Origin: Peptococcaceae bacterium
GTDB lineage: Bacteria > Bacillota > Peptococcia > DRI-13 > PHAD01
Length of the DNA: 41,809 nucleotides
Direction of reading: 5' to 3'
NCBI GenBank assembly: GCA_024655825.1
Contig: JANLFJ010000029.1
Coordinates: 1 to 41,809 of the forward strand
Both the position numbers and the translations under genes were made by a program. Each line of letters opens with the position of its first letter. The first letter of the stretch is position 1. The notes beneath the pieces were generated by a model. It searched no databases. It saw only the letters and a list, made by a program, of their open reading frames with translations, and was not told where the DNA came from. Of this stretch, positions 27,170 through 30,247 are shown in pieces.

Positions 27170-27187
27170 TGGCAGGGGGTGACGATT

Positions 27188-28600
27188 GTGAAAAAACTGT
27201 GGGGCGGCCGCTTCCAGAAAAACACCGACGCGCTGGCGGAGGATTTTCATTCTTCCATCAGCTTTGACCGGCGCTTGTACCGTCATGACATACGCGGCAG
27301 CATCGCGCACGCCAGGATGCTGGGGGAGGAAGGCATTATCACCCGCCGGGAAGCGGCGCAGATCATAGCGGGACTTGAGGAGATCCTGCAGGAGATCGAG
27401 GACGGCAAAATACAGTTCTCACAGGAAGCCGAAGACATCCACATGCACATTGAAGCGGTTTTGACGGAAAAAATCGGGCCGGCGGGCAAAAAACTGCACA
27501 CCGGCAGGAGCCGGAACGACCAGGTGGCCCTTGATACCAGGCTTTTTGTCAGGGAAGAGATTGAAAAAACCAGGCTCTTGCTCCTTGACCTGGTGGACGT
27601 CCTGGTCGGGCTGGCCGGCGAACATGCGGAGACCATCATGCCAGGTTTTACCCACCTGCAGATTGCCCAGCCGGTGACCCTGGGCCACCACCTGCTCGCC
27701 TACACGGAAATGTTCAAACGCGATTACGGGCGGCTGGAGGACTGCCGCCGGCGGGCGGACGTCATGCCCCTGGGTTCGGGCGCCCTGGCCGGGACCACGT
27801 TTCCCCTGAATAGGGAAAAAGTCGCGCGGGAACTGGGGTTTTCCAGGGTTTCAGAAAACAGCATGGACAGCGTTTCCGACCGGGACTATATTATTGAGTT
27901 CCTGGCGGCGCTTTCGCTGGTGATGATGCACTTATCGCGCCTGGCCGAGGAGATTATCCTTTGGGCTAGCCAGGGCTTCGCCTTTGTGGAACTGGACGAC
28001 GCGTACAGCACGGGTTCGTCTATCATGCCGCAGAAGAAAAACCCCGACGTAGCCGAACTCGTCAGGGGAAAAACGGGCCGTGTTTACGGCGATTTGCTGG
28101 CCTTGCTGGCGGTTATGAAGGGGCTGCCCCTGGCCTACAACAAAGACATGCAGGAAGACAAGGAAGCCCTTTTTGACGGCGTCGACACCGTGCAAAAATG
28201 CCTGCTGGTTTTTGCGCCGATGCTGGCCACAGCCGTTTTCAGGAAAGAAGAGATGTACAAGGCCGCCGGGAAAGGTTTTTCCAACGCGACTGACCTGGCC
28301 GATTACCTGGTAAGAAAAGGGATGAGCTTCCGCGACGCCCATCGCCTCGCCGGGAGCCTGGTCAGCTACTGCGTTTCCTGCGGCAAGGTCCTGGAAGAGC
28401 TGACGCTGGAGGAAATGAAAAAGGCCGGCCGGGATACAGGAATGGAACTTGCGGACCGCATCGACAGCGATGTTTACGAAGCCCTCAGGCTTGAGAACGT
28501 GGTGGGGCGTCGGCTCACCCATGGGGGCACCGCGCCGGTCCGGGTCAGGGAAGCGGTTGAGCGGGCCAGAAGGTGGTTGGAAGAAAAAAGAGCTGAGTGA
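27188..28600 (+). CDS. argH: Argininosuccinate lyase
   Basis: Last step: splits argininosuccinate into arginine and fumarate. The 470-residue product begins MKKLWGGRFQKNTDAL as in the family, and has HTGRSRNDQVALD, the fumarase-superfamily signature GSSIMPQKKNPD, and the catalytic-region block FTHLQIAQPVTLGHHL. GTG at 27188 was preferred to GTG at 27179 because GGGGGTGA then lies at normal spacing. Its last seven codons and stop lie inside a 46-bp sequence that is repeated exactly 912 bases downstream. Confidence 0.97.
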   Translation: MKKLWGGRFQKNTDALAEDFHSSISFDRRLYRHDIRGSIAHARMLGEEGIITRREAAQIIAGLEEILQEIEDGKIQFSQEAEDIHMHIEAVLTEKIGPAGKKLHTGRSRNDQVALDTRLFVREEIEKTRLLLLDLVDVLVGLAGEHAETIMPGFTHLQIAQPVTLGHHLLAYTEMFKRDYGRLEDCRRRADVMPLGSGALAGTTFPLNREKVARELGFSRVSENSMDSVSDRDYIIEFLAALSLVMMHLSRLAEEIILWASQGFAFVELDDAYSTGSSIMPQKKNPDVAELVRGKTGRVYGDLLALLAVMKGLPLAYNKDMQEDKEALFDGVDTVQKCLLVFAPMLATAVFRKEEMYKAAGKGFSNATDLADYLVRKGMSFRDAHRLAGSLVSYCVSCGKVLEELTLEEMKKAGRDTGMELADRIDSDVYEALRLENVVGRRLTHGGTAPVRVREAVERARRWLEEKRAE

Positions 28601-28623
28601 CAAAACCTCAGCTTTTTTCTTTC
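28578..28623 (+). repeat. 46-bp direct repeat, copy 1 (argH terminator)
   Basis: Identical at every base to 29490-29535. It contains the end of argH, a hairpin with AGCTGAG (28591-28597) pairing with CTCAGCT (28607-28613), flanking A and T runs, and so acts as the argH terminator. The A/T flanks make it bidirectional. See copy 2 for the matching end of the convergent gene. Confidence 0.95.
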
Positions 28624-28767
28624 AATAGAGGGGTCATCAGTTTACTTTTATGCGGGAATATAATATAATAAAAACCAAGAAACCAAGCGAGTAAAGAGAT
28701 AAGTATATTTTGGTATGGAGATGCATATAATATGTCTACGGCACTGCCTAAAAAGGGTTTGATAGAT

Positions 28768-29112
28768 ATGGAATCTCGGGTAATCAGGATATCATCCAAA
28801 AAGCAAATAACTATACCCCAGGCGTTTTATGAAAAGCTTGGCCTAGGCCGGGAGGCAGAATGCATCCTAAAGGGCGATGAGTTAATTATTAGGCGGCTTG
28901 ATAAAGCTAGTGATGACTATTCTGACCTGATATTGCAAGACTTGGTTAACCAGGGTTACACAGGTGAAGAACTTGTGGAGCAATTCCGGAAGATGAAAGC
29001 CGGAATAAGATTAGCAGCTCAAAGGATGATAGATGATGCCGTCGCTATCGCTAAAAAAGATACTCGTGATAGGGAGTCGGTCCATAAAGAAATTTTTTCT
29101 GACGTGGAGTAG
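28768..29112 (+). CDS. AbrB-family antitoxin
   Basis: A 114-residue protein with an N-terminal SpoVT/AbrB swapped-hairpin DNA-binding domain: RVIRISSKKQITIPQAFYEKLGL followed by ECILKGDELIIRRL. The helical C-terminal 70 residues (DDYSDLILQDLVNQGYTGEELVEQF...) probably wrap the toxin. The gene ends five bases before a RelE-type toxin, the usual antitoxin-first order. ATG at 28768 puts AbrB residues at the N terminus; ATG at 28732 would add 12 residues but coincides with a TATAAT at 28726-28731 that may be the promoter -10. Base composition is visibly A/T-richer than argH. Confidence 0.85.
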   Translation: MESRVIRISSKKQITIPQAFYEKLGLGREAECILKGDELIIRRLDKASDDYSDLILQDLVNQGYTGEELVEQFRKMKAGIRLAAQRMIDDAVAIAKKDTRDRESVHKEIFSDVE

Positions 29113-29117
29113 TTGAT

Positions 29118-29417
29118 ATGCTACCCGTGCAATATTTGCCACAGGCCGAAAAATACTTCAAGAAGATCCGTGATCCCAAGCTTAAACGACGGTTTAAAGA
29201 GGCCATTGATGAGATAAGGGCAAACCCGGAAGCAGGAAAGATTAAAAAATATGACTTAGCCGGTATCATGGGTTATGACGTATACTACAATAACACCAAT
29301 TATGAAATAGCCTACAAGGTCGTTGAAATTGATGGAGAAACAATATTAATCATCCTGGCTGGAACCAGGGAAAACTTTTACGATGAGTTAAAAAAATACT
29401 TGAAAAGCCAAAGATGA
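29118..29417 (+). CDS. RelE/ParE-family toxin
   Basis: A 99-residue toxin of the RelE/ParE superfamily. The pattern is typical: PQAEKYFKKIRDPKLKRRFKEAIDEI, NPEAGKIKKYDLAGIMGYDVYYN, YEIAYKVVEIDGETILIILAGTRENFYDELKKYLK. RelE members cut mRNA on the ribosome and ParE members poison gyrase; the sequence does not settle which. The start is five bases after the antitoxin stop, and the pair is flanked by the 46-bp repeats. It is probably autoregulated by the AbrB partner. Confidence 0.85.
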   Translation: MLPVQYLPQAEKYFKKIRDPKLKRRFKEAIDEIRANPEAGKIKKYDLAGIMGYDVYYNNTNYEIAYKVVEIDGETILIILAGTRENFYDELKKYLKSQR

Positions 29418-29489
29418 GACTATTATTACAGAAAGACCGCCACATTATATTATGTTATATTATGCTATAGATTTATTAAGCACAGTAGC

Positions 29490-29535
29490 TGGAAGAAAAA
29501 AGAGCTGAGTGACAAAACCTCAGCTTTTTTCTTTC
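29490..29535 (+). repeat. 46-bp direct repeat, copy 2 (shared by the tauE-type gene end)
   Basis: Exact copy of 28578-28623. The stop codon of the convergent TauE-type gene (complement of 29520-29522) lies inside it, and its hairpin serves as that gene's terminator. So each copy supports one flanking gene: copy 1 holds the argH end and copy 2 the tauE-type end. Before the insertion one copy would have served both. Confidence 0.95.
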
Positions 29536-29879
29536 CTTTTGCTGAAAAACTCGTAAAATCCCATGATAACCAAAAACAAGCCGAATGTCTTTCTCAAAAG
29601 TCCCGCCTCGAACCTGTTGGCCAGGGTGGCGCCGAGCACGGCGCCTGCCAGCGTGCCCACGGTGAGAAAGGCGGCCAGCTTCACGTTTATGTTGTTCTGC
29701 CTGTAATGGGTGACGACGGCCACCAGCGCCGTGGGGATGAACGAGGCCAGGCAGACTCCCTGGGCCGTGTGCTGGTCGATATTCATCAAAATGACCAGGG
29801 CCGGAACCAGCAGGGTACCGCCGCCGATGGCCATCCCGCTCAAGATGCCTGTAAAAAGGCCTATTATATACACCATCAT
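29520..29879 (-). CDS. TauE/SafE-type permease, second half-protein
   Basis: A 119-residue membrane protein with four helices: VYIIGLFTGILSGMAIGGGTLLVPALVIL, then CLASFIPTALVAVVTHY, LAAFLTVGTLAGAVLGA and LRKTFGLFLVIMGFYEFF. This is one half of the usual eight-helix TauE/SafE (sulfite exporter/anion permease) fold, with the family Gly-Gly-Gly motif and the HTAQGVCLASFIP block. ATG overlaps the stop of the preceding half by one base (TGATG), so translation is coupled. The two halves probably form a heterodimer. Substrate (sulfite, sulfonate or similar anion) is inferred only from the family. Confidence 0.85.
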   Translation of the reverse strand: MMVYIIGLFTGILSGMAIGGGTLLVPALVILMNIDQHTAQGVCLASFIPTALVAVVTHYRQNNINVKLAAFLTVGTLAGAVLGATLANRFEAGLLRKTFGLFLVIMGFYEFFSKRKEKS

Positions 29880-30247
29880 CAAAAAATCATCCTGATTCCC
29901 GCCAAAAACATAAAAATCCCGAAAATCTGCTTCAGGCGAGGGGCGGGAATTGTCTCCATCAGCCTGGCGCCAAGATAGCCCCCGGCCATCCCGCTTAAGG
30001 CTATTTTCAGAGCCAGTCCCCAGTCGAGGTGCTGGCTGGTCTGGTAAATAAAAGCGCTGACGGCTGCCGTCGGCAGGATAATGGCCAGAGAAGTCCCGTG
30101 CGCGATATGCTGTTTTTCCCCCAGGAGCAATATCATTGACGGTATGAGAATGGTACCGCCGCCTATTCCGATAAACCCGTTGACAAACCCGGCAATGAAC
30201 CCGATTAATCCCAGCCGGCAGCCTGCCTGCAGCGAAAGCCGTATCAA
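29879..30247 (-). CDS. TauE/SafE-type permease, first half-protein
   Basis: A 122-residue membrane protein with four helices and the same repeat pattern as its partner: GLIGFIAGFVNGFIGIGGGTILIPSMILL, AHGTSLAIILPTAAVSAFIY, LKIALSGMAGGYLGARL and LKQIFGIFMFLAGIRMIF. Full TauE proteins are about 250 residues and arise from an internal duplication, so this and the next gene together equal one. TTG start behind AAGGAGG at eight bases. The open frame seen further upstream on the other frame is a shadow. Confidence 0.85.
   Translation of the reverse strand: MIRLSLQAGCRLGLIGFIAGFVNGFIGIGGGTILIPSMILLLGEKQHIAHGTSLAIILPTAAVSAFIYQTSQHLDWGLALKIALSGMAGGYLGARLMETIPAPRLKQIFGIFMFLAGIRMIF

Follow-up and report, generated by a model that had tools for sequence, protein, structure and literature searches.

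How does a toxin-antitoxin (TA) pair that brings no transposase come to lie between two convergent genes, with the same hairpin on either side of it? Few bacterial genes are as mobile as those of TA modules. In a 2020 review, the mechanism of their movement and integration was described as unelucidated (PMC7167474). The question is posed in a compact form by the junction of argH and a convergent TauE/SafE-type gene (tauE) in a Peptococcaceae bacterium (assembly GCA_024655825.1, contig JANLFJ010000029.1, positions 1 to 41,809), the whole 41.8-kb stretch being referred to below as the window. That a TA unit inserted at this junction and that the target was duplicated is well supported. The features concerned are the following.

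27179..28600, plus strand: argH (argininosuccinate lyase), with its last 23 nt inside repeat copy 1 and its stop codon at 28598-28600
28578..28623, no strand: repeat copy 1, the hairpin at the argH end, read as the target duplication from the repeat match and DNA fold
28624..29489, plus strand: inserted TA unit, 866 bp, with a guanine-plus-cytosine (GC) content of 0.39 and without terminal inverted repeats
28641..28669, plus strand: putative TA-operon promoter TTTACT-17-TATAAT, 17 bp into the insert, a consensus match only
28732..29112, plus strand: antitoxin, 126 amino acids, with a MazE/AbrB-like N terminus
29118..29417, plus strand: toxin, 99 amino acids, ParE-like (PF15781/PF05016)
29490..29535, no strand: repeat copy 2, a hairpin identical to copy 1, which ends the TA operon and the convergent tauE
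29520..29879, minus strand: convergent TauE/SafE half-gene, with its last 16 nt inside copy 2 and its stop codon at 29520-29522

The two repeat copies are identical at 46 of 46 bases, as the original prediction had stated from the sequence of the window, and an extended repeat of 51 bp matches at 96%. The 46-bp pair is the sole direct repeat of at least 30 bp in the window, and the 35-bp hairpin core, with up to three mismatches allowed, has two matches in the genome, both at the argH/tauE locus. The TA cassette is present in a single copy, and the further copies of cassette or hairpin that had been proposed for a search elsewhere in the genome were not found. Since the ends of argH and the TauE gene are both encoded in one 46-bp segment, a normal argH-hairpin-tauE junction is recovered when the outer half of one copy is joined to that of the other. 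The original prediction assigned to each copy a gene end and a terminator. The gene ends stand; as to the terminator, the 46 bp fold as a hairpin (DNA fold z -3.3), and a simple terminator scan called none because the hairpin loop is too long for it. The designation of this hairpin as a terminator rests on its position, its A-tract/T-tract stem and the retention of a hairpin at the junction in relatives.

The DNA between the copies is foreign in composition, its GC content comparing with 0.56 in the flanks, and it contains the two TA genes only, with no transposase or integrase gene among its 866 bp. Its size, low GC content and two genes are as first described, while the identities of the proteins, given then as an AbrB/RelE pair, are better defined. 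The toxin belongs to the RelE/ParE superfamily (PF15781, 76.8 bits, E 1e-21; PF05016, 29.5 bits; both above cut-off) and is ParE-like rather than RelE proper. The antitoxin is called MazE/AbrB-like from weak matches to PF04014 (MazE_antitoxin) in two of five antitoxin homologues; the window antitoxin itself lacks this match, and its only Pfam match, to YwpF, is sub-threshold. Neither the toxin nor the antitoxin profile had a match among solved structures. The antitoxin-toxin gene pair is kept in most homologous loci, and the insert is predicted to be a minimal type II TA unit, consisting of a promoter, antitoxin, toxin and short tail, which was probably acquired horizontally.

The state of the junction before insertion is preserved in relatives. 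In five of them (G002, G003, G009, G014 and G016), which belong to other families of the same order as the window organism, argH is followed by a convergent tauE without TA genes, the uninterrupted arrangement for which a search had been proposed beforehand. The junctions of G003 and G009, the closest in layout, contain little beyond one shared hairpin, and in G009 the argH stop codon lies inside that single hairpin, which is the layout we infer for the ancestor. In G002, a TA copy of 78% identity lies at another chromosomal site and lacks the hairpin. The empty junctions, together with this copy elsewhere, indicate that the single hairpin is ancestral, that the TA pair is a newcomer and that its insertion gave rise to the second hairpin. 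This agrees with the original prediction of an ancestral single copy duplicated by the insertion, and it disposes of the converse, a repeat older than the TA genes. Judging from the window alone, it would be conceivable that a tandem duplication of the hairpin came first and that the TA pair later entered between the copies. Such an order of events is very improbable, given that tandem copies of the gene-end hairpin occur in none of the relatives examined at argH-tauE and that an equal coincidence would be needed at each of four loci in other genomes, L065, L067, L069 and L081.

The same junction is occupied differently in two further genomes. In G010 (L041:1280-2335) and G001 (L037:1573-3357), it holds a gene for a secreted protein that resembles copper-amine-oxidase-domain proteins, without direct repeats, and the leader of the G010 gene resembles a cyclic di-GMP riboswitch, a candidate by appearance. 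The G002 junction (L034:1195-1340) contains repeated and inverted copies of GTCAAGGGGACGGTTCTTCTGACACGGT-type sequence.

The TA footprint recurs in several unrelated bacteria. TA homologues were gathered from bacterial genomes, viral contigs and whole genomes, and at 145 distinct loci the sequence immediately preceding the antitoxin was compared with that immediately following the toxin. An exact flanking repeat of at least 24 bp was present in seven of these (the window, L065, L067, L069, L081, L140 and L134). Mismatched pairings of left and right flanks yielded no such repeat in 20,880 comparisons, and segments shifted within their own loci yielded one in 457, which fell in L134. When the discovery case (the window) and L134 are left out, five of 143 loci retain an exact flanking repeat. 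Looser repeat scoring (at least 45 bits) gave a weaker contrast, 11 of 147 loci against 6 of 277 controls, as the controls then include arrays and paralogues. A wider sample of the ParE superfamily comprised 90 loci.

Flanking repeats were lacking at L287 and L288, the two further ParE-type TA loci retrieved from the window genome, at the near TA relative in G002 and at that of L068 in G896; the latter two imply that some insertions leave no footprint or that it has since decayed. Several candidates were rejected as insertions of the window kind, namely a clustered regularly interspaced short palindromic repeat (CRISPR) locus (L088), insertion sequence (IS) ends (L082), paralogous or repeated genes (L182, L109 and L262) and repeat arrays (L134, L181 and L248). 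A separate observation concerns an acetyltransferase gene (L084:67-1004) that lies between 44-bp exact repeats at a spacing of 824 bp, possibly a like footprint with non-TA cargo.

The rejected arrays, in which homologues of the window TA (L134/L167 from Thermincola, L181 and L248) lie among long hairpin repeats resembling integron attC sites, were judged integron-like by reading the sequence rather than with an attC model. They bring up the explanation that the window pair is itself an integron-type cassette, which arrived with its own attC-like hairpin and was placed by an integron integrase, and the occurrence of the same TA family in such arrays is a likeness to integron TA cassettes. The window hairpin, in contrast, contains the ends of the argH and tauE coding sequences and is unique in the genome, whereas a cassette would not bring host gene ends with it. 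By reading, and with no dedicated attC model run, the core boxes RYYYAAC/GTTRRRY are absent from the 46 bp, and no cassette array was met in the window genome, where the hairpin has two copies only. As the empty sites in relatives also contradict it, a cassette origin is extremely improbable.

A second class of explanation is tested by the borders of the units. Five of six clean units measure 774-871 bp, L068 being longer at 1236 bp; their left borders lie 108-161 bp before the antitoxin, and their right borders 11-72 bp past the toxin except in L068. The units carry no transposase gene. Terminal inverted repeats and a shared end motif were absent from all six, the longest exact end match falling within the range of shuffled sequences. 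In related units at different places, homology comprises the genes and ~55 bp upstream of the antitoxin, and it stops at the toxin stop codon. Compared with an IS or a miniature inverted-repeat transposable element, the window unit has the target duplication, 46 bp with empty sites, and lacks both a transposase and terminal inverted repeats, as had been anticipated. Long duplications do result from some transposases, which raises the possibility that an IS enzyme of the IS1634/IS1549 or IS1202 type mobilizes a non-autonomous transposon in trans: IS1549 and IS1634 duplicate 8-514 bp (PMC2266710), and IS1202-group duplications are 16-28 bp (PMC10132070). IS1549 and IS1634 share with the window unit the long, variable direct repeats formed on insertion, for which no mechanistic model is available (PMC2266710), but they differ from it in having terminal inverted repeats and a transposase gene of their own. 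The bare, motif-free ends of the six units and the abrupt limits of homology between related ones make transposition in trans improbable.

Most of the duplications consist of a complete hairpin at the end of a native gene. At L067, what is duplicated is the 34-bp hairpin itself; copy 1 closely follows the end of nanE, and copy 2 closely precedes the end of a convergent fucose-isomerase-like gene. At L081, a 36-bp hairpin between a radical-SAM gene end and a convergent membrane-protein gene is duplicated, and at L065, the duplication covers the terminator of an M18 aminopeptidase gene; it measures ~49 bp, has a single mismatch and in copy 2 runs to the end of the contig. The 46-bp repeat of L069 is a hairpin following a YoeB toxin gene, and a third, weaker copy (77%) precedes the YoeB pair, as an accumulation of TA units at a single hairpin would predict. 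L068 has an exact 28-bp repeat containing a 23-nt palindrome, with the right copy 396 bp past the toxin. A RelE-type TA at L319:1475-2445, one of the ParE-superfamily loci, lies between two copies of a neighboring TA's palindromic operator/promoter segment, in which the palindrome is exact over 29 bp within a ~55-bp duplication. L076 (76% over 58 bp) and L098 appear to be older cases. In the ParE-superfamily set, a Phd/RelE pair (L305:125-955) lies between 31-bp exact repeats at a mazF end, with no hairpin. The proposal of a small mobile TA unit found at convergent gene ends or terminators is supported by independent cases in other genomes; L068 is not convergent, and the duplications of L140 and L305 are not strong hairpins. 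The TA unit may encode or bring its own targeting, or the pattern may reflect retention by addiction together with selection against damaging insertions.

The main rival to hairpin-directed joining is non-specific capture, in which DNA is joined anywhere at long staggered breaks and the survivors are those insertions that leave both neighbors a complete terminator, so that the association with hairpins is a survivor effect. The absence of conserved ends and the position of clean cases between genes or at gene ends agree with capture, and L305 and L140 fit it better. On the other hand, the duplications of the window, L065, L067, L081 and L069 exceed 97-100% of random segments from comparable flanks in per-base fold stability, which places all five in the top 0-3% relative to their own flanks, and the younger duplications are little longer than the hairpin. 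A preference of TA insertion for hairpins is likely, and capture, which we do not dismiss, is the less plausible of the two. Under both, addiction would retain the TA pair and the duplicated hairpin would serve as its terminator.

Cruciform extrusion is expected at negatively supercoiled palindromes. In the mechanism that we consider rather probable for the window, a horizontally acquired minimal TA unit was inserted at the argH/tauE hairpin by staggered opening or joining, and was kept by addiction. The hairpin common to argH and tauE would extrude as a cruciform, and its two strands would be opened or joined at opposite feet, giving long staggered ends. TA DNA would be joined to these ends, and gap filling or repair synthesis would copy the whole hairpin to both sides. 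The genes argH and tauE would each retain an end, the TA operon would acquire a terminator that it did not bring, and addiction would hold the insert in place. The mode of cutting is inferred; the study of IS1272 noted that, for a cruciform target, joining at the 5' feet would give two copies of the whole stem-loop (PMC5678879).

Several points weigh against this account. No enzyme was identified for the insertion and no insertion event was observed. An empty site is proven for the window locus only; those of L067, L068 and L081 were not found among 25-30 relatives each, in which the flanking genes are non-adjacent. Besides the weak folding of the L140 and L305 duplications, L069, L081 and L319 show faint similarity past the exact core, which implies that the original duplications may have exceeded the hairpin, and the exact cores could partly reflect selection preserving hairpins. 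It is only tentatively, and with slightly more doubt than confidence, that we extend hairpin-directed joining to a general, structure-directed route for TA modules, by which type II pairs spread as transposase-less units that join DNA hairpins, whether terminators or palindromic operators, and duplicate the whole hairpin.

Parallels exist for parts of this process. Chromosomal type II TA modules between genes, such as ccd in folA-apaH and parDE in relA-mazG, likewise lie between housekeeping genes, are absent in relatives and leave their neighbors intact (PMC7167474), whereas insertion of the window unit duplicated its target, a hairpin, exactly and over a long stretch. IS1272 also targets stem-loops of any sequence, of 21-85 bp, but it has a transposase gene and inverted-repeat ends, and it replaces the stem-loop rather than duplicating it (PMC5678879). 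The open-licence papers searched yielded no account of TA units duplicating a hairpin. The recurrent footprint, a hairpin doubled around a bare TA pair, is a signature for which genomes can be scanned, and it makes the question of TA integration testable. It shows why the neighbors survive, each keeping a terminator while the newcomer receives one, and it points to hairpins as entry points for TA modules.

A minor observation concerns the convergent neighbor, in which the TauE/SafE transporter is split into two half-length genes of ~120 amino acids each (window 29520-30247, minus strand), a split that is shared by relatives.
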